Part shown: positions 12,407 to 33,476 of the stretch, one piece after another | Numbering within the stretch: position 1 is the stretch's first letter | How the letters are laid out: the number at the start of each line of letters is the position of its first letter | Assembly (NCBI GenBank): GCA_024278235.1 | Contig: JAJRTO010000457.1 | Coordinates: forward strand, 1 to 35,769 | Length of the DNA: 35,769 bases | Source: Candidatus Poribacteria bacterium | GTDB taxonomy: Bacteria > Poribacteria > WGA-4E > JAJRTO01 | Reading direction: 5' to 3' | Program-made: the position numbers and the translations under genes | The notes under the pieces: model-generated | The model's database searches: none | What the model was told of the DNA's origin: nothing | The model's input: only the letters and a program-made list of their open reading frames with translations

Positions 12407-13462
12407 ATGCATAAAGATGGTCTGACAAGAGAAGAATTCGCCAGCATAATGAGTCTGGAGGACGAGAAGGCAGAAGGCTCCGAAGCGACGCAATCTGTTA
12501 TACCCCCGGAGGAATCAGAGATTGCAGCGTATGATTTTTTTCAGCAGCGCATGTTCGTAAGTGATGCACTGCGCACGCTGGAAGAGATTCATAGCCGTTT
12601 CATCGCCAACTTTCGTATATGGATCTCAGGGCATTTACGCTCCATGTTCGAAATGAAAATGGCAGCCGTTGAGCAGAAGACCTTCTCTGAGTTTAGAGAC
12701 AGGCTGCCCGATCCCACATATGTGAACATCTTTGGCCTACGACCGCTCGAGGGAAATGCCGTATTGCACATTGATCTGGGACTGGCATTCATCTTTGTCG
12801 ATAAACTACTGGGAGGGTTAGGTGAGCCACTAACAGACAGTAATCTACGTGCGTTGAGTCCCGTAGAAATGCGTATCATGGCCTCAGTGATCAGTCACAT
12901 CTACGAATCCTTGAAAGAGGTGTGGCAACCGATCTATCCATTGGTTCCGGTCGCTCTCAGTGATGAAGCGCATCCTCAGTTCGTCGAAATTGGGGTGATG
13001 CCTGAAGATACAGTGGTACATATCAGCTTTGATGTTTCCTATGGGCAGTACCAGGCACAGATGGATCTTTGTATTCCCTATGTTGTATTGCAGCCAATCC
13101 GCAATCAACTTGTTGGAAGGCGGATACAGGTAGAGGGGACTTCCCGGACATCCATCCAGCAGCATCTGATGAAGGTACGCGTTCCTGTACGTGCAATCCT
13201 TGCAGAACACACGAGAACCCTGAGAGAACTGCTGGAACTCAACGAGAACGACGTGATTCCCTTCAACAAGGAGATCACGAAACATGCCGTAGTGGTTGTT
13301 GGAAAGACGCCCCGGTTCCTGGCAACACCGGGGATCGGTTCTGGTCGACGCATGGCTGTCAAACTCGTCTCCGAAATCAAAGATGAAGAAGAAAAAGAGT
13401 CGGCAGAATCCTCCTCGGCAGCAGAGCCAGGAGAGACAACTGAAAGGATAGAGAATGGATGA
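12407..13462 (+). CDS. fliM: Flagellar motor switch protein FliM
   Basis: LTREEFASIM N-terminus, 'LLGGLGEP', C-terminal SpoA region. Confidence 0.93.
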   Translation: MHKDGLTREEFASIMSLEDEKAEGSEATQSVIPPEESEIAAYDFFQQRMFVSDALRTLEEIHSRFIANFRIWISGHLRSMFEMKMAAVEQKTFSEFRDRLPDPTYVNIFGLRPLEGNAVLHIDLGLAFIFVDKLLGGLGEPLTDSNLRALSPVEMRIMASVISHIYESLKEVWQPIYPLVPVALSDEAHPQFVEIGVMPEDTVVHISFDVSYGQYQAQMDLCIPYVVLQPIRNQLVGRRIQVEGTSRTSIQQHLMKVRVPVRAILAEHTRTLRELLELNENDVIPFNKEITKHAVVVVGKTPRFLATPGIGSGRRMAVKLVSEIKDEEEKESAESSSAAEPGETTERIENG

Positions 13463-16272: not shown

Positions 16273-17349
16273 ATGAGAGATCCTGAACGCAGATATCAGC
16301 CAACGCGCCGCCGTCGTCAAGAAGCACGGCGCAGAGGTCAGGTTACACGCAGTACAGAACTCAACTCGGTACTGATATTACTGGTCGTTCTGCTCCTGAT
16401 GACCTTCATGGGAAGCAGCATCTACCGGGGACTGTCCATCATACTACGTGATGCCTTCATACGAGTTGCTCAGGCATCTCATATGAGTAATCTTCCTGAT
16501 GTTGCAGGACTTGCGTGGGAAGGAAGCAAACTCATATTGCCAATCATGCTCGTTGCTTTTGTGGTTGCCATCCTGAGTAATGTTTTGCAGATTGGCATTG
16601 TATTTACAGCGTATCCTCTACAGCCGCGTTTCGACAAAATCAATCCTGTCTCAGGATTTCAGCGTATTTTCTCCGTACGTTCCCTGTTTGAATTGGGGAA
16701 ATCCCTTGGCAAGATAGCCATTATTTCTGGTGTTTCCTATCTTGTCATCCGGGGACGGCTAGAACGACTCGCGTTTGCCATGGATATGGCGCATGGGGAG
16801 TTCCTGCGCTTCATAGCGCACACAGTAGCTCGACTTTTCCTTTGGACCTGTGTTACACTGATCGCCCTGGCCTTAATGGATTACTTTTACCAGCGTCGCG
16901 AACACGAACGTGGACTGTTGATGACGTTCCGTGAACTGTTGGATGACCTTCGCCAGGAAGAGGGCGATCCGCATGTCCGCGCTCGCATTCGAAGCTTGCG
17001 ACAAAGCATCACTCGACAACGGATGATGGCTCAAGTAGAGGAAGCAGATGTAGTCATCATCAATCCTGTTCACCTAGCTGTCGCACTGAAATATGACACG
17101 GAAAGCATGCAGGCGCCCTGTGTCGCTGCAAAAGGAGCACGCAAGTTGGCGGATACTATCCGCGAGATTGCACAGAAACACAGAATTCCTATTGTGGAGA
17201 ATCCGCCACTTGCTCAGATCCTATATAAAACGGTAGAAGTCGATCAGGAGGTTCCAGAGCGGCTTTACGAAGCCATTGTGGAGGTGTTTGTCTACATACA
17301 TCGGCTTGCACAGCGGAGGCATTCGACACTCGCTGCTATGAATGGATAA
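16273..17349 (+). CDS. flhB: Flagellar export protein FlhB
   Basis: 'RRQEARRRGQVTRSTELNS' and 'ADVVIINPVHLAVALKYD' autocleavage region. Confidence 0.96.
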   Translation: MRDPERRYQPTRRRRQEARRRGQVTRSTELNSVLILLVVLLLMTFMGSSIYRGLSIILRDAFIRVAQASHMSNLPDVAGLAWEGSKLILPIMLVAFVVAILSNVLQIGIVFTAYPLQPRFDKINPVSGFQRIFSVRSLFELGKSLGKIAIISGVSYLVIRGRLERLAFAMDMAHGEFLRFIAHTVARLFLWTCVTLIALALMDYFYQRREHERGLLMTFRELLDDLRQEEGDPHVRARIRSLRQSITRQRMMAQVEEADVVIINPVHLAVALKYDTESMQAPCVAAKGARKLADTIREIAQKHRIPIVENPPLAQILYKTVEVDQEVPERLYEAIVEVFVYIHRLAQRRHSTLAAMNG

Positions 17350-17352
17350 TCC

Positions 17353-19425
17353 ATGCAGACGGTATCAAATGGTCTAGGTCGTGTAGGCAGCATTGCGGTA
17401 CCCGTTGTCATCGTCGTATCACTGGCAATGATGATCTTTCCATTACCTGCACCATTGCTGGATCTGCTGCTGACCCTGAATATCACGATCTCGATATCGA
17501 TCTTGTTCAGCACGATCTACATTCGAGATTCGCTAGAACTCTCGGTGTTTCCCTCGTTACTTCTGATCGTGACGCTCTATCGATTGGCCCTGAATGTCGC
17601 TTCAACACGCCGTATCATGCTATACGGACACGAAGGCCCCGGAACCGTCAGCAAAGTTATCTCCACGTTCGGTGATTTTGTTGTCGGGGGAAACTATGTG
17701 ATCGGATTTGTCATTTTCCTGATATTGGTTGCGATTCAATACGTCGTCATCACCAATGGAGCACAACGAGTCGCTGAGGTTGCAGCACGTTTTACCCTGG
17801 ATGCAATGCCAGGAAAACAGATGGCCATTGATGCAGAGCTTAACGCAGGGGTCATTACAGATGATGAGGCTCATCAGCGAAGACACCACATTCAGAGAGA
17901 AGCAGATTTTTACGGTGCGATGGATGGTGCCAGCAAATTCGTAAAGGGCGATGCTATCGCATCCATGATCATTATTGTCGTAAATATTCTTGGAGGACTC
18001 GCTGTGGGTATACTTCAGCGAGGGCTTAGCTTCTCGACGGCTGTGGGAACGTATACGTTGCTCACTGTTGGCGATGGCTTGGTAGCGCAGATTCCAGCAC
18101 TTGTCATCTCTACGTCCGCAGGGATTCTTGTAACACGTACAAGCACCGAAATGGATTTAGGGAGCGATATTACCCGGCAAGTGTTCTCCCAACCAAATGC
18201 CCTGTTCGTTACAGCAATAGCTCTCCTGATTTTCGGACTTGCAACCCCGTTGCCCGATCTGCCGTTTACCTTATTGAGTTTCATTTCAGGTGGGCTCGGT
18301 TTGTTTCTGTATCTTTCAACAAGACGGATGGCGGCCGAGGAAATCACACTGGAGAAAGAAGCTGAGGCGACAGAACGAATAGAAAAAATGGAAGCGAGCT
18401 TTGAACCGGATCCGATCCTCGTCGAAATCGGTTATGATCTGATCGCGCTGGCAGATGAAATGCAAGGAGGAGATTTAGCGGAACGTATTCGAGAAATACG
18501 ACCGCGCTGTGCTAGAGATCTGGGGATTGTTATCCCACTGATCCGTATGATCGACAGCGTTGATCTCAGTGGTGCAACTTACCGCATTAGTATTAAGGGA
18601 ACCCCGGTCGCTCAAGGTGAACTCATGGTCGATCGCTATCTTGCGATGAACCCAGGAGATGCGCAGGAAGGGGTTCCGGGTGTCTCAACAACAGAACCCG
18701 CGTTCGGCATGTCGGCCCTCTGGATTGAGGATATCTACCGAGAACGTGCAGAACAGTCAGGATACATCGTTGTCGATCCTGCAACTGTTCTGGTGACACA
18801 CCTGGAGGAAGTGATCAAACGTCATGCTGCGGAGTTGCTGAGTCTACAAGCTATACGCACGTTACTTGATCATCTTGCAGAGCGTAATCCGGTCGCTGTC
18901 AATGAGGTGGTTCCTGAAGTATTGAGTCTGGTCGATGTGCGCAACGTACTAGCAAGGCTACTGACAGAACAGGTTTCTATCAGAAATCTCACGACGATCT
19001 TGGAGACACTCGCAGATAACGGCCGTGTGCTCAAGGACACCAGGTTTCTGACGGAGAAGGTCCGACAATCGCTCAGGCGGGAGATCGTCGAACAACACCT
19101 TGGTCCGGACCGGCAACTGCATGTTCTGACACTGCATCCAGAGCTAGAGGCGACATTGCTCGAATCCATTCAAGAAGACGCTTCCGGAAGGGCTGAACTG
19201 AGAGCAGATGCACGTTTGATCCGTACGACGATCCAGAACATCAATGAGACGACGGAAACTGTCGCTGCACAGGGCATTCAACCGGCACTGCTGTGCGCTC
19301 CTGCGTTACGACCTCATTTAAGTGAACTGGTACATTTGTATCTCCCCAGTATGGCAGTACTATCGTACGAAGAACTAACGACACAGGTAGAAACGGTGAC
19401 AGATGGGGTTATTCAAGCCTCATAG
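17353..19425 (+). CDS. flhA: Flagellar export protein FlhA
   Basis: 'RVAEVAARFTLDAMPGKQMAIDAELNAGVI' FHIPEP-family region. Confidence 0.98.
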   Translation: MQTVSNGLGRVGSIAVPVVIVVSLAMMIFPLPAPLLDLLLTLNITISISILFSTIYIRDSLELSVFPSLLLIVTLYRLALNVASTRRIMLYGHEGPGTVSKVISTFGDFVVGGNYVIGFVIFLILVAIQYVVITNGAQRVAEVAARFTLDAMPGKQMAIDAELNAGVITDDEAHQRRHHIQREADFYGAMDGASKFVKGDAIASMIIIVVNILGGLAVGILQRGLSFSTAVGTYTLLTVGDGLVAQIPALVISTSAGILVTRTSTEMDLGSDITRQVFSQPNALFVTAIALLIFGLATPLPDLPFTLLSFISGGLGLFLYLSTRRMAAEEITLEKEAEATERIEKMEASFEPDPILVEIGYDLIALADEMQGGDLAERIREIRPRCARDLGIVIPLIRMIDSVDLSGATYRISIKGTPVAQGELMVDRYLAMNPGDAQEGVPGVSTTEPAFGMSALWIEDIYRERAEQSGYIVVDPATVLVTHLEEVIKRHAAELLSLQAIRTLLDHLAERNPVAVNEVVPEVLSLVDVRNVLARLLTEQVSIRNLTTILETLADNGRVLKDTRFLTEKVRQSLRREIVEQHLGPDRQLHVLTLHPELEATLLESIQEDASGRAELRADARLIRTTIQNINETTETVAAQGIQPALLCAPALRPHLSELVHLYLPSMAVLSYEELTTQVETVTDGVIQAS

Positions 19426-19442: not shown

Positions 19443-20561
19443 ATGCGTATCAAAACCTATGAGGTCCGTTCCATGCCAGAGGCTTTGGCGCGAATCAAGC
19501 AAGATTTAGGTCCCGATGCGGTTATCCTGAATATCCGACGCATCAAGCGACGTCGTTTATTTGGTCTACTTGGGGACAAGCTGATTGAAGTCATCGCCGG
19601 TGTGAGGGATCGGGAGAGAACATCGAAAACGAAACAACCGCAAGCTCCCGGATCACCGAAAATAGTGAGAGTGTCAGAAACTGAGCACGTCATGGAGAGT
19701 TCTGAAGCGACCTCCACAGACACGGGGATGCGTAGACTTTTAGATGATCTTCACGATCATCTGAATAAACTGGGGATCCATAGAGAGTTGGCGCAACGAA
19801 TTGTGTTTATGTTGGATGATATTGCCTCAACACAGATGACCCAGGGAATTGAACTGAATACCCAGGAAATCCGCTCTACCTTCATCCAGCGCTTAGAGCA
19901 GATCATACCGATAGCCGGAGAGATCTCTCTCACAAACGGTGAAAGACAGGTCATCGCATTGGTTGGCCCCACCGGAGTTGGCAAAACCACAACAACCGCG
20001 AAACTTGCGGCATTGTACTCCATCTTGAAGCGTCGCTCAGTTGGGTTGATCAGTATTGATGCTTATCGTATTGCGGCGTATGAACAGTTGAAGACCTATG
20101 CCGAGATCATTAACTTACCTGTACAGTTGGCACTCAGTCCGCGTGGAGCACGTGAGGCTGTTGAGAATCAAACGAACTGTGAACTGGTTTTTATCGATAC
20201 AGTAGGTCGGAGTCCCAGTCACGAAATGCATATGGCGGAACTGCAGAGCTACATTACCGCAATGCAGCCGGATCAAGTATACTTAACACTGGATGCCACT
20301 ACAAAATATATGGATCTACTGGAAGTCTACGACAAATACCGCCAAACGGGTGTGAGTCGACTATTATTCACAAAACTGGATGAAACCCTTTCGCTGGACT
20401 CTCTGATCAATATGGCATATCGAACCAAACAGCCGCTCTCCTATTTTACCACGGGTCAAAGCGTACCTGATGACATTGAGGTCGCGAGTCATACGCGCCT
20501 GTTTGATTTCATGATCCATGAAAAGCATCTACAGGCTATTCTGGACCAGATGAAGGAGTAA
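19443..20561 (+). CDS. flhF: SRP-type GTPase FlhF
   Basis: 'ALVGPTGVGKTTTTAKLAALY', 'SIDAYRIAAYEQLKTYAEI', 'DTVGRS', 'KLDET'. Confidence 0.96.
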   Translation: MRIKTYEVRSMPEALARIKQDLGPDAVILNIRRIKRRRLFGLLGDKLIEVIAGVRDRERTSKTKQPQAPGSPKIVRVSETEHVMESSEATSTDTGMRRLLDDLHDHLNKLGIHRELAQRIVFMLDDIASTQMTQGIELNTQEIRSTFIQRLEQIIPIAGEISLTNGERQVIALVGPTGVGKTTTTAKLAALYSILKRRSVGLISIDAYRIAAYEQLKTYAEIINLPVQLALSPRGAREAVENQTNCELVFIDTVGRSPSHEMHMAELQSYITAMQPDQVYLTLDATTKYMDLLEVYDKYRQTGVSRLLFTKLDETLSLDSLINMAYRTKQPLSYFTTGQSVPDDIEVASHTRLFDFMIHEKHLQAILDQMKE

Positions 20562-20568
20562 CGACCAT

Positions 20569-21471
20569 ATGGAAAATGACAATGTAGCCAATGCCACCAT
20601 GGCGAGTCAGGCTGATGGCCTACGTCAGATGCTTGCAAAACACATTATACCGGTGGTCGGCAGCAAGAGGGGCATTGGACGATCCTCCTTTATCTGGAAT
20701 CTCGCCACTGCACTATCAAGTACATTCGCCAGGTTGTTGATCTACCATGTGGCTCCCGATCATTTACCGGACATTTATGCGGAGCGTACGATACGAAGAA
20801 ATCTAAAACCGTTGGAAACCGTTTGGCGTCAGAGAGAAGAACTCTCCGCAGCGATTGCGGTGGCTCGCCGGCCGAATATATCCGTTGCACAATTAGGCGA
20901 CATTCATGGAGAATATACACCAGTAGATGGTAAGCTACCAGAGAAGGATCTCCGGGAACGTGTAGGGATGGAAACACAGCGCATTGAAGACATGTATGAC
21001 TGTATCCTGGTCGATGTGGGCACGGCCTCACACACTCAGAGTATCGCAGTCTTGCTTGAACTCAGACGATTCTTTATGGTAATCACACCTGATATTCCTG
21101 CGCGAACCAGTGGCTATGCCCTCATCAAGCATCTTACTGCATTGGGGGCAGAATGCGATATTTCGCTCATTGTTAACATGGGGACGGACGAAGATCAAGC
21201 ACGCCGGGTTGCCGACAGCCTGATCACCACTTGCTCAGATTTCCTCGGGATCAATGTGTCTTATCTCGACTTCATCCCAATGGACTTCAGCATCATGAAT
21301 GCTCAATGGAAAAGTCAATCTGTCGTTGAGATGAATAACCCATCTGCAGCCGCTCAATCCATTTTGCGTATTGCAGCAACCCTGGGGCAAATGATAGCGG
21401 AGAGAGAACTTCCACATGCCAGTCTCGGGGCGATGATCTTGACTGCTGCTTTGACTGAGGAATCTGAATAG
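20569..21471 (+). CDS. flhG: Divergent FlhG/MinD-family protein with degenerate ATPase motifs
   Basis: Directly after flhF; MinD-like layout with 'IIPVVGSKRGIGRSSFIWNLATALS', 'DCILVDVGTASHTQS'; N-terminal 'SQADGLRQML'. Confidence 0.8.
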   Translation: MENDNVANATMASQADGLRQMLAKHIIPVVGSKRGIGRSSFIWNLATALSSTFARLLIYHVAPDHLPDIYAERTIRRNLKPLETVWRQREELSAAIAVARRPNISVAQLGDIHGEYTPVDGKLPEKDLRERVGMETQRIEDMYDCILVDVGTASHTQSIAVLLELRRFFMVITPDIPARTSGYALIKHLTALGAECDISLIVNMGTDEDQARRVADSLITTCSDFLGINVSYLDFIPMDFSIMNAQWKSQSVVEMNNPSAAAQSILRIAATLGQMIAERELPHASLGAMILTAALTEESE

Positions 21472-21516
21472 AATCATGGGCGGGACAAATTCACCAGAAA
21501 AGGAGACTTGCATACA

Positions 21517-22248
21517 ATGGGAATGATGAGCCGAAGTCCAAATGACATCGGACGACCCGTTTTCTTACACGTTCGGTCAGGGCTCAATGTCACGGAACAC
21601 CGGAGCCAAATATATCGCATGGAGGGAAACAGCCTTATCCTGGAAGCACCTCCTTCCCTTCGATTATCGGAAGGTCAGGAGATAACCATCTACAAAGCGA
21701 CTGACGGTGGCGAGACACAGGAGTACCAGACAACAATACAGTCGTTCCGTCGTGATGAACTCTTGGAAACAGAGGTACTCCATAGCACCATCCCTCAAGG
21801 GTTTGCTATACGAAGCTATTTCCGTGCAGACAGCATTGTTGCTGTAACCTTGCTGGCGGAAGGGCAGAAAACACCGAGTGTTGGAAACATGCTCAATCTG
21901 AGTGGAAATGGGATCCGCCTGGCTGTTGAACTCGTGGAGCCTGAACGGCCCCAGCGAGGGGATCCGGTCGAAGTTGAGTTCAGTTTGCCCAGGATTGGGG
22001 GGGGTGCCCGCGTGGGCAGACGACGCAGATATCAGTCGGAACCCACCATGGATGAACTCAAATTCCTTGGGACTGTTATTCGACGCCATGAAAGTGCTAC
22101 GGATCGACGTTTAACCGTCTTTGGGATTATGTTTGATGAACAACAGTTTGTCGGATCTCCCGATAAAGAAGACGACCGAGAAAAACTCGTTCGGTATGTT
22201 CTTCAGATCGAATTTCAACAACTAGAACAACGGCTTGAGGAGTCATGA
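21517..22248 (+). CDS. PilZ-domain (YcgR-like) protein
   Basis: RSYFR ... NLSGNG matches PilZ RxxxR and [D/N]xSxxG. Confidence 0.8.
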   Translation: MGMMSRSPNDIGRPVFLHVRSGLNVTEHRSQIYRMEGNSLILEAPPSLRLSEGQEITIYKATDGGETQEYQTTIQSFRRDELLETEVLHSTIPQGFAIRSYFRADSIVAVTLLAEGQKTPSVGNMLNLSGNGIRLAVELVEPERPQRGDPVEVEFSLPRIGGGARVGRRRRYQSEPTMDELKFLGTVIRRHESATDRRLTVFGIMFDEQQFVGSPDKEDDREKLVRYVLQIEFQQLEQRLEES

Positions 22249-22582: not shown

Positions 22583-23377
22583 ATGAAACTGCTTCCTTTA
22601 GCAAAATGCGGTACTGAATCCTTGCATGAGCTATGGAGAGATTGCAAGCATCACCATTGTGAGCGAGCCAGGGAACTTCTGATCTTGCATTACGCAGGAC
22701 TGGTCAAGTATGTCTTGGATCGCCTGGCATTGAATCCTCCTTCGCCGGTAGAGTTCAATGACCTCGTGAACACCGGAATTCTGGGGTTGATAGATGCAGT
22801 AGACCGTTATGATCCTGAATACGGTACTCCATTCAAATCCTATGCAATATGCCGTATCCGGGGATCTATCTTGGATGAGGCCAAAAAACTTGGCTGGATT
22901 CCACGCTCAAGATATCGCAAACATGTGATGATCGAACATGCTTACGCACAGATTGAACGCGAAATGGGAAGACCAGCTACAGATGAGGAAGTGGCCCGGG
23001 TTCTCGACCTGGAGCTTGAGGGTCTCTATGAGTTGCTGGCGGACATGCACTCCTCCAATTTTATCTCCCTGTATGACTGTATCCATGCAGATGCTGTTGA
23101 AAGAGGGACTTGTCTGATAGACATCATTGAGGATCCGCAAGTGGATCCAGCAGAATCAGTGGAACTCCGTGAAATGCAGGAACGACTCGCAGATGCCATT
23201 CGGAATCTACTTGAGAAAGAGAAATTCGTCATCATGTTATATTATTATGAGGAACTCACCTTCAAAGAGATAGGACGCGTTCTCTCCGTGTCAGAATCGC
23301 GTGTCTGTCAGATTCATACGAAGGCGGTTCTTCGGATCCGGGGAAAACTGAGAGACATAATGCCCACTGAGAGGTGA
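22583..23377 (+). CDS. fliA: RNA polymerase sigma factor FliA (sigma28)
   Basis: 'FNDLVNTGILGLIDAVDRYDPEYGTPFKSYAICRIRGSILDEAKKLGWIPRS' and region 4 'LTFKEIGRVLSVSESRVCQIHTKAVLRIR'. Confidence 0.96.
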   Translation: MKLLPLAKCGTESLHELWRDCKHHHCERARELLILHYAGLVKYVLDRLALNPPSPVEFNDLVNTGILGLIDAVDRYDPEYGTPFKSYAICRIRGSILDEAKKLGWIPRSRYRKHVMIEHAYAQIEREMGRPATDEEVARVLDLELEGLYELLADMHSSNFISLYDCIHADAVERGTCLIDIIEDPQVDPAESVELREMQERLADAIRNLLEKEKFVIMLYYYEELTFKEIGRVLSVSESRVCQIHTKAVLRIRGKLRDIMPTER

Positions 23378-28263: not shown

Positions 28264-28310
28264 GCCTGGATGACTGCTGATAACTCTCTCCAACAGGTAA
28301 CTGTGTGCTG

Positions 28311-31300
28311 ATGAACGGATGCATCGAGCGCCTTTGGTTCAGTTGTGGTTGTTTCATACTCTTGTTCTATTCGTTCCTCTTTCCAGCTTGGGCGACACCT
28401 GAAATCTCCCTCACTCCTTCCACTTACACTGCAGAAGTCGCCGAAGAGTGGCTCCTCAGCGTTCAAGTTGCCAACGTGAAAGATCTCTATAGCGTTGTTC
28501 TCGAATTATCATTTGAGCCGGCTTCTCTACAGATCATCCACGTCAACCCAGGTGATTTTCTGACCGATCCATCTGCTGGATCATCTTCCTTCCTTTACAC
28601 GATCCATCCTGATCAGATTCGTCTCGCTATGGCAGCACCCATTGGTCATCCGGGTGTCTCTGGCTCCGGTACGATTGCCACGATTCGGTTCTCATCATTT
28701 CAGCAAGGGCGAGCAGATCTGAGCATTTCGCCGGACTCACTTATATTGTCAGATACGACGGGAACTCCTATTACAGATGCCCCACAGATACGCAATACTT
28801 CCATTGCAATTGGTCGAGGTGTTGTTCTTGATCATGAAACAGCAACGGTAGGTAATGACATCACTGCCTACCTCACTGGATTTTCACCTGGCGAGATGGT
28901 CACAGCACAACTGGGCGAAAAACCTTTGAGCCTAAGCACAAATATGGTTGATGCTGCTGGCCGGCTACAGACGACCTTTGAATTACCGCCGTTTACTGGT
29001 GGAGAGCAACAGATCCGATTTCACGGTGAAGATTCCGGATGGGATGAATCTGTCCCTCTGGGGGTTATGCCAAGCATCCAGATGATTCAGCCAAATCAAG
29101 CGAAGATCGGTTCACGTGTGCAGGTACAGGTTCACGGATTTGGAGCTGAGGAAACCATCATTGTGGAGTTAGGTACTGTGATGCTTATCTTGGAATCCGG
29201 TAGTCACCGAAGCGATGAATTTGGAAGTGCAAACCTCTCATTTAGTATACCGACGATGCCTGTCGAAGGAAACTTACCCATCAAGATATCCGGCCTGCAT
29301 TCGGGGTTATCAGTCCAACAACAAGAGGCACTGCGGATCTTGCCTGAGATCACTCAACTTATGCCGACTCAAGGTTCAATCGGCACATCCATTGAGATTA
29401 TGGGCCATGGATTTGGAGCCAATGAACCCATATCAGTGCAATTCTCAGGCGAGCCGGTCGAAGCGACATCGGACGCTGACGGCCGATGGCAGATCGTATT
29501 CCTGTTGCAATCAGAGCAGATTGCTGAAAGTCGCTATGGTGTATTGCCCTGTGTGGCAATAGGTTTGCGCTCTGATCAGCGTGCTACTCGACACGGTTTT
29601 GTCTATGAACCTCTCGGCCGTATTACCTCTATTGAGCCCTCCGGTGAGGTGAATGTTGGTGACACCATCGAGTTTCAAGGGGAAGGATTTCCCGCAGGTG
29701 CATTGGTCGGCATGCTTTTGAATGATAGACCAGTGACGCAATTCCGAGATACGCAGGGAAACACGCTGATTCCACCTGTTGTTCCCAGCAATGGGGTTCT
29801 CCATTTTCTGTGGGACGTCCCAACCATCCCGGCGGGCATCAAGAACCTGACGCTGACCGTAGGTTCGATAAGATTGGAACGGGAAAATGCGATAGCAGTC
29901 GTTCCCTCCATCACAAGTGTCCTGGTGAAAGATGGCACGGATCTGGTGACCACCGGACGTCCCGGGATGCTTGCGACTGCAAGTGGTGAAGGCTTTACAG
30001 CGAATCACCTCGTTGTGCTTGACATGGGAGCGCACGTTGGTGTGGCAACAGTTCAAGCGGATGCGTATGGTCATTTTGAAGCACCCTTCGTCTTACGCGA
30101 CGCTCCACCAGGGAACGTTCTGATCACCGCCAACGATGGCGTTTACACAGTGACCTATCGAGAACTTCTCCTCTCTGTACCAGAATCTCCAACATTTTAC
30201 CTGAGCACTACTTCAGGGCATGCCGATGAAATCGTCCGAATCGTGGGGACCGGTTTCCCGCCTTCCATCAACCTGGGAACACTCGGATTGGATTCTATCG
30301 CAGATGAGGGACTGAGTCCCCAATTTCTGCTGCTCATGGATGCCCGTGTTGGGTACACAACAGGAAGCCAGATCATTACTGACGGCCGTGGCGCATTTGA
30401 CATGGCCTTCAGCATTCCCAGGGATGGTACGGAGGCCACCTATGGTGACAAAGAGGTATGGCTCTTTACTACCACTGAAGGGATGCTCTCTCAGCCACTT
30501 CATCTGGAGCCCCATCTGATCGTACAACCGAGCGAGGCTGCGCCAGGACAGACCGTGCAGTTATATGGCACGGGTTTCGCTCCCAACGAACCGATCAATC
30601 TGGGATTTGGTGAATCTGGAGCCGAAACCGTTATCACCGACCCAATCCTGGCAGACAGTTCTGGAAGCTGGTCCGTATCTTTCACGATTCCGAATCAACC
30701 GGGAGGACTGAGACGGTTCCAGGCGAAAGGGGGAACTTCTCAACAGAATCGATACGTTGAGTTCTCAGTGATCCCTCAGATCACCCAGGTCATCAAGCGG
30801 ATCACAAATGAATCTCCGGGATCGACGCTCTCTCCGGGAGATACGGTGGAGATTGCAGGGAACGGTTTTGGGGCGAACGAACAGATACAGATCGATCTGG
30901 GAGAAGCCCGGAATGTGCTCATCACAGGGGAACCAGGCACCGGCTCTCTGGGAGACTTTTCGACGGCTTTTCTGGTGCCCAATCAGCGATCTTTAAGCCC
31001 GGAAGTTCGGGCTCGTGTTATCGGTTTGGATTCCGGGTTTGTTGCAGAATCTCCTGTCATACTGTACGTTGCCGGCCGTCTCAAACTGGAACCACAACGT
31101 GGGTTTGTAGGAACATGGATCACAGTTCTTACCAGTGACATGCTCAACACCGTTTACTTTGCAGGACAATCGCTTCCCATCCAGCAATTTGATGCCCTGG
31201 GTCATCCAATGTTTCAGATCCCTACTCAACTGCCCGGAGGGAGTTACGTCATCGAAGCAGGCGAAGCCAGCACAATATTTGAGGTGATCCCCCGGCTCAC

Positions 31301-33476
31301 ACTCGCACAAGGTCAAACGGTGGTGGTAGGAACATCTATGCAGATCCGGGGCACCGGATTTGATCAGTATGAATTGGTATCCTTCGGTACAGGATGGCTA
31401 GAACAGATAACCCAGAGCGTAACCGATCAGTATGGTCAATTCAACACATCTATGATTATTCCTCCGCAGCCGGGTGGCTGGACATTGTTGTACGCATCAG
31501 GCACGAGTTCTTTCATCACACAACCACTTAATATCTCACCGAAGATCGTGACAGTTCAGAGCTCGCCGTCGGATGCCACGCTTCTTATCGCAGCAGAAGG
31601 TTATGGCGTTCAAGAAACCGTTCAAATCCTTCTTGATGGTGTGACATCTCTGGAACGGGATACAACAATGGATGGATTGATCGGCGTGAGCATCCCCTTC
31701 GGTGCAATCTCTTCCGGAACAGCTCACTCCGTACAGATACGTGGTCTGAGTTCTGGACTGGTCGATGTCTGGCGCGGTACGTGGTATCCAACGACTGCCA
31801 GACTTGAAGTGGCATCTTCCGTGGCAACTCTCGGTAGTTTCATACAGATTCGGGGCTTCGGCTTCAGTGCAACAGAGCCTCTCCGCCTTCTGATTGGAGA
31901 TCGCGTATTCAACACTGCAACAAGTGCAGCGGGCAGCTTCGACATTACTTACTCTATTCAGAAGGAGTTCGCGTCAGGCATGATTCCCATTCATGCACTT
32001 GGAAGAACATCCCATATCCAGGCTTTCCATCCCGGCTTTACCTATATCTCATCCGTTGGCCCTCGTATTGTTTCTGTGATTGAAGACAGCAGTGGTAAAA
32101 TCCTGACAGTGGGGGATACGCTGACTATCTATGTAACACAGGGAGAAGATGCGACCCCGGCGGAACGTGGCTATTTCCGAATTGGTCCGGATATCGAAGC
32201 CCCTCTTTACAACGATGGCATCCATGGGGGGGATGTACAGGCCGGCGATGCTATATGGACAGGACAAGTGGTCGTCCGTTCCGAGCACTTAGCAGTGGAG
32301 AACACCGTATGGGTTGAATTGGCCGACGCAGCAGAACAGACGGCGCAGGCCAACAGCAATACCACTGTTCAGATCGATGCGATTGCTCAGATCACCTCGA
32401 TCCTGGTTCCTGATAAGATCTTATCGGACACTCCTATCTCCATTGAAGTGACAGCAGAAATAGGGGGCACCGCCACCTGTCAACTCGAAGGATTCATTGA
32501 AAATGTACCTTTGAAGGAGGAGGAATTGGGGATCTATCGAGCGGAGGTCCAGATCACAAGCGCTGAGACAAGCAACACAAGGTGCATTGTCACCTTCGAA
32601 GATGCACTAGGGAACCAAAGCACGAGCCAATCGGATCCGATCCTGGTGGATACATCAGCCCAGATCAAGGAGGTCTCTGTTTCAGGCAGCCCCGCTCTTC
32701 CTGGAGAAAGCATCACGATCACCTTGCTTGCCGAACCCGGAGGAGAGGCATCGTACCGCATCCCGACGTTGATATCGGAGCGGCCTCTTGAGGAGGTGTT
32801 GGCAGGACAGTATGTGGGAGAATATCTTGTACCGCAGGGAACGCCTTATCATAGTGGCATACTGGAGATCACATTCACAGATGCTTATGAACACACGGCC
32901 ACGGATGCATCAGAGCAAGTCATTCTTGGTGTGGCAGCCCGTCAATTCACCGTAGAAACGACGCTCTATCGTGGACTGAATCTGGTCAGTTTACCATTGC
33001 AAGTTCCTGAAATCCAGACGCTGAGTGATTGGATGGCACACATCGGCCCGGAGACCAGCAGTATCGTCTGGTACGATAACAACACAGAACGCTTCCGAAC
33101 CATCATCAAGGGACAACCGGCGGAACCAGTGCAAATCAAACCGGGAGTCGCTTACTTTATTTTCGTGGATGCCAATGTGCATATCATCTATCGAGGACAG
33201 CCCTATGAAGGGGATGTTTCACTGCTTTCTGGGATGAATATGCTTGGTGTACCACTCCAGGATGAACGTGCCCAAACCATCCAGGATCTCGCTTCGCTCC
33301 TGGGTGATGCCACGCTCATCATTCGTTATAATCGAGAAACCGAATTATTTGAATCGTATACTCCCTCTATCAGTGATCAACGTATCGGTTCCCATCCCAT
33401 CACAGGTACCGAAGGCTTCATTGTGTTGATGAGTTCAGCGCGCACGATCCTGTTTGAGGGAGATGTGTGGCAGTAA
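28311..33476 (+). CDS. Giant secreted protein: cohesin-like domain, ~12 IPT/TIG-like repeats, C-terminal 'GLNLVSLPL' domain
   Basis: Signal peptide ending PAWA; N-terminal cohesin-like 'VQVANVKDLYSVVLELSFEPASLQIIHVNPGDFL'; repeated 'G..v.i.G.GFgaNE.i.v.lG' motifs. Confidence 0.8.
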   Translation: MNGCIERLWFSCGCFILLFYSFLFPAWATPEISLTPSTYTAEVAEEWLLSVQVANVKDLYSVVLELSFEPASLQIIHVNPGDFLTDPSAGSSSFLYTIHPDQIRLAMAAPIGHPGVSGSGTIATIRFSSFQQGRADLSISPDSLILSDTTGTPITDAPQIRNTSIAIGRGVVLDHETATVGNDITAYLTGFSPGEMVTAQLGEKPLSLSTNMVDAAGRLQTTFELPPFTGGEQQIRFHGEDSGWDESVPLGVMPSIQMIQPNQAKIGSRVQVQVHGFGAEETIIVELGTVMLILESGSHRSDEFGSANLSFSIPTMPVEGNLPIKISGLHSGLSVQQQEALRILPEITQLMPTQGSIGTSIEIMGHGFGANEPISVQFSGEPVEATSDADGRWQIVFLLQSEQIAESRYGVLPCVAIGLRSDQRATRHGFVYEPLGRITSIEPSGEVNVGDTIEFQGEGFPAGALVGMLLNDRPVTQFRDTQGNTLIPPVVPSNGVLHFLWDVPTIPAGIKNLTLTVGSIRLERENAIAVVPSITSVLVKDGTDLVTTGRPGMLATASGEGFTANHLVVLDMGAHVGVATVQADAYGHFEAPFVLRDAPPGNVLITANDGVYTVTYRELLLSVPESPTFYLSTTSGHADEIVRIVGTGFPPSINLGTLGLDSIADEGLSPQFLLLMDARVGYTTGSQIITDGRGAFDMAFSIPRDGTEATYGDKEVWLFTTTEGMLSQPLHLEPHLIVQPSEAAPGQTVQLYGTGFAPNEPINLGFGESGAETVITDPILADSSGSWSVSFTIPNQPGGLRRFQAKGGTSQQNRYVEFSVIPQITQVIKRITNESPGSTLSPGDTVEIAGNGFGANEQIQIDLGEARNVLITGEPGTGSLGDFSTAFLVPNQRSLSPEVRARVIGLDSGFVAESPVILYVAGRLKLEPQRGFVGTWITVLTSDMLNTVYFAGQSLPIQQFDALGHPMFQIPTQLPGGSYVIEAGEASTIFEVIPRLTLAQGQTVVVGTSMQIRGTGFDQYELVSFGTGWLEQITQSVTDQYGQFNTSMIIPPQPGGWTLLYASGTSSFITQPLNISPKIVTVQSSPSDATLLIAAEGYGVQETVQILLDGVTSLERDTTMDGLIGVSIPFGAISSGTAHSVQIRGLSSGLVDVWRGTWYPTTARLEVASSVATLGSFIQIRGFGFSATEPLRLLIGDRVFNTATSAAGSFDITYSIQKEFASGMIPIHALGRTSHIQAFHPGFTYISSVGPRIVSVIEDSSGKILTVGDTLTIYVTQGEDATPAERGYFRIGPDIEAPLYNDGIHGGDVQAGDAIWTGQVVVRSEHLAVENTVWVELADAAEQTAQANSNTTVQIDAIAQITSILVPDKILSDTPISIEVTAEIGGTATCQLEGFIENVPLKEEELGIYRAEVQITSAETSNTRCIVTFEDALGNQSTSQSDPILVDTSAQIKEVSVSGSPALPGESITITLLAEPGGEASYRIPTLISERPLEEVLAGQYVGEYLVPQGTPYHSGILEITFTDAYEHTATDASEQVILGVAARQFTVETTLYRGLNLVSLPLQVPEIQTLSDWMAHIGPETSSIVWYDNNTERFRTIIKGQPAEPVQIKPGVAYFIFVDANVHIIYRGQPYEGDVSLLSGMNMLGVPLQDERAQTIQDLASLLGDATLIIRYNRETELFESYTPSISDQRIGSHPITGTEGFIVLMSSARTILFEGDVWQ

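Follow-up and report, generated by a model that had tools for sequence, protein, structure and literature searches.

A poribacterial FlhG with a degenerate ATPase and a retained FlhF-activating helix motif in a second flagellar system

FlhG is normally an ATP-driven counter that limits the number of flagella built per cell. The locus described here raises the question of what remains of that role in an FlhG whose ATPase motifs have eroded while the motif of the short helix by which FlhG turns off its partner FlhF has not. The window, meaning the whole 35,769-nucleotide stretch of DNA that was analysed, is contig C399 of a 5.19-Mb, 536-contig MAG of Candidatus Poribacteria with a contamination estimate of 3.85%. 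It holds a near-complete flagellar cluster, from FlgN and FliF through FliD, which belongs to the second of two flagellar systems in this genome.

A degenerate FlhG beside an intact FlhF

The cluster runs in the order FlgN, FliF, FliG, FliH, FliI, FliJ, MotA, MotB, FliL, FliM, FliN, FliO, FliP, FliR, FlhB, FlhA, FlhF, the flhG-like gene, PilZ, a FliA-type sigma factor, PilZ and FliD. As is characteristic of FlhG, the flhG-like gene adjoins flhF on the downstream side within the flagellar operon; its ATG lies 7 bases past the flhF stop codon, with AAGGAG upstream. The features discussed below are as follows, all on the forward strand.

12407..13462, +, fliM of the second system; its N-terminus, LTREEFASIM, is possibly a diverged EIDAL-type motif
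16273..17349, +, flhB
17353..19425, +, flhA of the same (second) flagellar system, from profile matches and tree
19443..20561, +, flhF, an intact SRP-type GTPase and partner of the degenerate FlhG, from TIGR03499 and alignment
20569..21471, +, flhG-like gene with a degenerate ATPase, 300 aa, from translation, alignment and an AlphaFold model matching FlhG 4rz2
20605..20625, +, activator or enhancer helix motif SQADGLR (compare DQAxxLR) with the catalytic Gln as Q14, from alignment; motif function from PMC12826062 and PMC12327844
20665..20685, +, degenerate deviant Walker A, KRGIGRS (K33-R34-G35-I36-G37-R38-S39), from alignment
20743..20769, +, degenerate Walker A' YHVAPDHLP, first Asp absent and D64 kept after a 2-residue insertion, from alignment
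21004..21021, +, Walker B-like ILVDVG with D149 kept, from alignment
21424..21468, +, C-terminal helix without the FF motif typical of nearly all canonical FlhGs compared, from sequence only
21508..22248, +, PilZ/YcgR-type protein downstream of flhG
22583..23377, +, fliA-type sigma factor

Directly downstream of fliD, the window also encodes a 1723-aa protein with TIG and cohesin domains (28305-33476), which is possibly secreted or filament-associated.

A preliminary description of this DNA had read the gene as a pseudo-FlhG, and its account of the motifs was compared with an alignment of 14 FlhG sequences in which columns were counted over the 11 canonical FlhGs. KRGIGRS does stand where KGGxGK[T/S] is expected: the canonical set shows no variation at G34, K38, T39 and the first DxD Asp (position 60), where the window protein has R, R, S and H. 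The Walker A' segment had been described as lacking its first Asp, which is correct, with the refinement that the segment is only half lost, its second Asp, D64, remaining behind the two-residue insertion. The Walker B-like strand is retained as claimed. So is the likeness of SQADGLRQML (20605-20634) to the DQAxxLR helix, its Gln being kept; a chance origin of this motif is unlikely, because only 208 of 200,000 shuffles of the window protein place QAxxLR within the first 40 residues. By sequence, then, the protein carries the N-terminal enhancer helix with catalytic Gln by which an FlhG is known, and it fails the deviant Walker A pattern KGGxGK[TS]. The upstream FlhF, earlier called intact, scores above the cut-off of the FlhF equivalog TIGR03499 and was aligned to B. 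subtilis FlhF 2px0/3syn.

Curated models score the window protein as no intact ATPase, with ParA/AAA Pfam matches below cut-off and just 38 bits for minD_arch. Membership of the KGGVGR-motif variant AAA ATPases (NF047398) was also considered, and the score was 13.4 bits against a curated cut-off of 90 bits. The predicted structure nevertheless resembles FlhG more than any other MinD/ParA-type fold: the best PDB match of the AlphaFold model is FlhG 4rz2 (Foldseek, E 3.9e-15), in a model of moderate mean pLDDT (72.7) that is poor at residues 72-122. At the C-terminus, the FF motif is absent, and the membrane-targeting sequence is presumed to be lost or changed; the hydrophobic moment of the helix is not clearly lower. 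From these motifs, ATP-dependent dimerisation and ATPase activity are predicted to have been lost. Residual nucleotide binding is possible because D64 and D149 are kept and the change from K to R is conservative.

Two flagellar systems in three Poribacteria

FlhA is present in 16 of the 85 genomes of the phylum, and the window genome has two full-length FlhA genes. Its other flagellar set is spread across contigs: C388 breaks off within the second flhF, and C170 starts inside an FlhG with an intact KGGVGKT, followed by a PilZ protein, a membrane protein and a sigma factor. The helix of this canonical FlhG would lie in the N-terminal piece missing from C170, which begins at KGGVGKT, and that piece was found on no other contig. 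The same pairing of systems occurs in SP142 (PAQF01) and UWMA-0119 (DTUY01), two MAGs (G030 and G065) that are 96% complete and belong to another family than the window genome. In SP142 the canonical system lies on C73 and the second system, with its degenerate FlhG, on C26; the corresponding contigs in UWMA-0119 are C386 and C420. An intact FlhG is thus encoded in all three genomes that carry a degenerate one.

The second systems of the window genome, SP142 and UWMA-0119 are one lineage. The FlhA and FlhF trees each unite them at 100/99, apart from the canonical systems, and a tree that constrains the window FlhF to group with those of the canonical systems is rejected (p-AU 3e-74). Over its whole length the window FlhF shares 47-48% identity with its two orthologues, and 24 genes are collinear with SP142 C26, including the tail of PilZ, sigma factor, coiled-coil, PilZ and FliD. 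No member of this clade was found outside Poribacteria in the collections searched. The FlhG tree is uninformative as a test of monophyly on account of its long branches; the three degenerate proteins form no clade in it, and such a clade is not rejected (p-AU 0.42). Best Foldseek matches are FlhG 4rz2/4rz3 for the window and SP142 degenerate proteins alike.

Several side observations were made in the course of these searches. The G3 motif of second-system FlhFs (window 20196-20222) reads DTVGRSPSH / DSVGRSPNH, as opposed to DTPGRS in canonical poribacterial FlhFs, and this alteration may be connected with the change in the FlhG partner. In one poribacterial family (G011, G006, G009, G015 and G013; loci L080, L075, L078, L081 and L082), flhF lies away from flhA with no adjoining flhG. 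FlhF may work without FlhG there, because the phylum-wide FlhG profile reaches no more than MinD-level scores in these genomes. Stand-alone proteins of about 250 aa that match FlhA in its N-terminal membrane half alone (PF00771) are kept outside flagellar clusters in three genomes of one family, at L140:6961-7731 (SP142 C34), L141:8172-8867 (UWMA-0119 C403) and L137:9691-10446 (G064 C505). A further degenerate copy suspected in G064 (C431) was rejected as an orphan MinD-like protein with an intact P-loop, outside any flagellar cluster.

The losses are common to the three degenerate FlhGs. None has the P-loop lysine, which is R in the window and Y in SP142 and UWMA-0119, and the two relatives, reading SGGVGMGYT and SGGIGTGYT, are without either P-loop lysine; both orthologues thus also fail the deviant Walker A pattern. 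The invariant glycine at the second residue of KGGxGK is R in the window and V or I in the relatives. The first DxD Asp is missing in all three, and the Walker B Asp, D149 in the window, is Glu in both relatives. The C-terminal FF motif, found in nearly all canonical FlhGs compared, is absent from all three. Retention is equally shared. QAxxLR is kept in 3/3, with a full DQAASLR in both relatives; the window's SQADGLR has Ser for Asp and keeps the Gln. The spacing from helix motif to P-loop is exactly 13 residues in each, against 28-55 in canonical proteins. Since the related genomes carry the same kind of loss, a sequencing error or frameshift in the window gene is rejected; the preliminary description had left this to be decided by canonical KGGxGKT homologues in the clade, and the second-system orthologues lack that motif too.

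The rest of the protein has diverged widely. The window FlhG is only 20-28% identical to canonical poribacterial FlhGs, and of the 44 columns invariant in the 11 canonical proteins it keeps 19, the SP142 second-system protein 17. Branch lengths of degenerate FlhGs are many times canonical ones. Between the window and the SP142 second system, FlhF is 47% identical and FlhG 19%, whereas canonical pairs with 44% FlhF identity have FlhGs that are 41-44% identical. Divergence this fast would follow if the protein was released from its ATPase constraint and selection continued to act on a smaller interface. In SP142 and UWMA-0119, the degenerate flhG is a maintained gene under strong purifying selection: its dN/dS is 0.063; the values are 0.056 in the flhF and 0.088 in the flhA of that system, and 0.091 in the canonical flhG, all estimated from this one pair of genomes. 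None of the differences between their two degenerate FlhGs falls in the helix motif.

Proposed function and alternative explanations

FlhF stimulation has been traced to an N-terminal region of FlhG, the peptide of which binds close to the catalytic site of FlhF (PMC7226244). The Gln of DQAxxLR is co-catalytic in GTP hydrolysis by FlhF, and replacing it with alanine has an effect in B. subtilis like that of deleting flhG (PMC12826062, PMC12327844). Gln8 of the motif is critical for stimulation, and the B. subtilis Q8A mutant has an flhG-null phenotype (PMC12327844). Because the helix is retained and FlhF is intact, we infer that the window FlhG stimulates the FlhF GTPase. The explanation that we consider probable is that this is the FlhG belonging to a second flagellar system common to at least three Poribacteria, that its MinD-type ATP cycle has been lost, and that it acts as an ATP-independent, non-cycling activator of the FlhF GTPase and possibly also as a C-ring adaptor.

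Characterised FlhGs cycle between an ADP-bound or apo monomer and an ATP-bound, membrane-attached dimer (PMC12327844, PMC7226244). The window FlhG would instead stay a monomer that does not cycle on the membrane, or form an ATP-independent dimer, and its helix would stimulate GTP hydrolysis by the co-encoded FlhF. It would probably still carry C-ring parts (FliM/FliN), because the C-ring protein FliY binds a characterised FlhG independently of nucleotide (PMC12327844). Thus the poribacterial degenerate FlhG may have kept the ATP-independent half of the protein (the helix, perhaps the cargo) and discarded the ATP-dependent half (the dimer and recruitment to membrane and landmark). The second-system FlhF might then be turned over by a soluble activator limited by expression, cargo or the other FlhG. 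Deviant Walker A mutants of Vibrio FlhG lose function and polar localisation and are hyperflagellate (PMC7226244); for this reason normal counting is not to be expected from an ATP-dead FlhG, and by analogy the second flagellum is likely not counted by an ATP-gated FlhG. Its placement and number would be set by the FlhF GTP cycle together with FlhG expression or cargo occupancy, and not by ATP-gated recruitment of FlhG to the membrane or pole. Taken together, the evidence suggests that the FlhG control step can run without ATP. Points against this account are the residual nucleotide binding that the kept residues might allow, the loss of function in the Vibrio mutants, the S in place of D at the first position of the window helix, and the lack of a clade of the three FlhGs in the FlhG tree.

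These results also settle how far the preliminary description can be followed. Its pseudo-FlhG with a retained FlhF-activating helix holds up, given the degeneration in three genomes, the FlhG fold, the kept Gln and the purifying selection in two relatives. An activator or scaffold role may be right; "constitutive" is stronger than the evidence, since the protein could be regulated by cargo or by heterodimerisation with the intact FlhG. The suggested effect on flagellar number and placement has to be narrowed to the second system, as the sister system has a canonical FlhG and the window protein is not the cell's only one.

The canonical FlhGs of the two relatives show what looks like the reverse loss. 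In SP142 (L017:8904-9830) and UWMA-0119 (L054:7080-8009), on C73 and C386, respectively, the ATPase-intact canonical proteins read NHAAELR, with His for the catalytic Gln and Asn for the Asp. The Gln is kept in the other canonical poribacterial FlhGs with a readable N-terminus (G003, G004, G007, G059, G060, G064 and G083). In each of these two genomes, therefore, the ATPase resides in one FlhG and the activating helix in its counterpart; as they are sister genomes, this complementary loss counts as one evolutionary event. A tentative extension of the proposal is that the two paralogues of a cell have split the ancestral activities, with system one keeping the ATPase and membrane tail and system two the helix. 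FlhF GTPase stimulation and ATP-gated positioning would then be activities that nature can separate, and they may work in trans between the two flagella.

The activator role of the helix could be secondary if the degenerate FlhG serves mainly as a chaperone or scaffold for the C-ring (FliM/FliN), or forms a heterodimer, as its inactive subunit, with the other system's intact FlhG. The nucleotide-independent FlhG-FliY interaction would fit this, as would the presence of an intact FlhG in every one of the three genomes and the EELDAL-like motif kept at the N-terminus of the second-system FliM in UWMA-0119. The helix, however, ranks among the best-preserved stretches of a protein whose identity is otherwise 19-25%. 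This indicates that FlhF is the partner under constraint and makes the explanation unlikely. It is unlikely, too, that the window FlhG still binds ATP non-canonically, with R38 for the P-loop lysine and D64 as the Walker A' Asp, and goes through the usual FlhG cycle. K33, G35, G37, D64 and D149 are kept in a protein of FlhG fold, but the orthologues have neither P-loop lysine and carry Glu at the Walker B Asp, K36A in Geobacillus FlhG abolishes ATP binding (PMC12327844), and the FF motif of the membrane tail is missing from all three proteins.

The very long FlhG branches and lost catalytic residues could also reflect a decaying gene, a pseudogene in the making that is leaving a dispensable second cluster. 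Full-length ORFs in three genomes, the preserved helix and spacing and an otherwise complete cluster make this very improbable, and for SP142 and UWMA-0119 a simple pseudogene is rejected by the dN/dS of 0.063. Finally, the contig number and contamination estimate of the window MAG might suggest two organisms binned together, an artefact hardly to be credited when two more MAGs of another family hold the same pair of systems and the second-system clade occurs only in Poribacteria among the collections searched.

Comparison with known systems

FlhF and FlhG are treated as a coupled GTPase/ATPase switch, in which the contribution of the ATP cycle beyond the FlhF-stimulating helix is not settled. 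An apparently ATPase-dead FlhG that selection has kept beside an intact FlhF, in a genome whose other FlhG is ATPase-intact and has lost the Gln, is nature's own separation of these functions and lends itself to tests with purified proteins. The open-access literature was searched, though not exhaustively, and yielded no description of a naturally occurring FlhG with a dead ATPase.

With FlhG/FleN/YlxH, the MinD-like ATPases represented by Geobacillus 4rz2 and Pseudomonas FleN 5j1j, the window protein shares the fold, the place directly downstream of flhF and the N-terminal helix with its conserved Gln. It differs from them in lacking the P-loop lysine, the deviant Walker A glycine, the first DxD Asp, the FF motif of the membrane tail and about 20 linker residues. 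Loss of the deviant Walker A lysine recalls the laboratory ATP-binding mutants K31A of Vibrio and K36A of Geobacillus FlhG. Whereas such mutants are loss-of-function in monotrichous Vibrio (PMC7226244), the poribacterial loss has become fixed in nature, in a gene that is maintained. Turning to dual flagella, Shewanella and Vibrio likewise have two separate flagellar gene sets per genome; in S. putrefaciens, FlhF/FlhG are needed by the polar system alone and do not affect the lateral one (PMC11236974). In these Poribacteria, by contrast, both systems have an FlhF and an FlhG of their own, and the intact half is not the same in the two FlhGs. Since FlhF/FlhG leave the secondary system of Shewanella unaffected, a second system that combines an FlhF of its own with a stripped FlhG represents a known control circuit in a new form.
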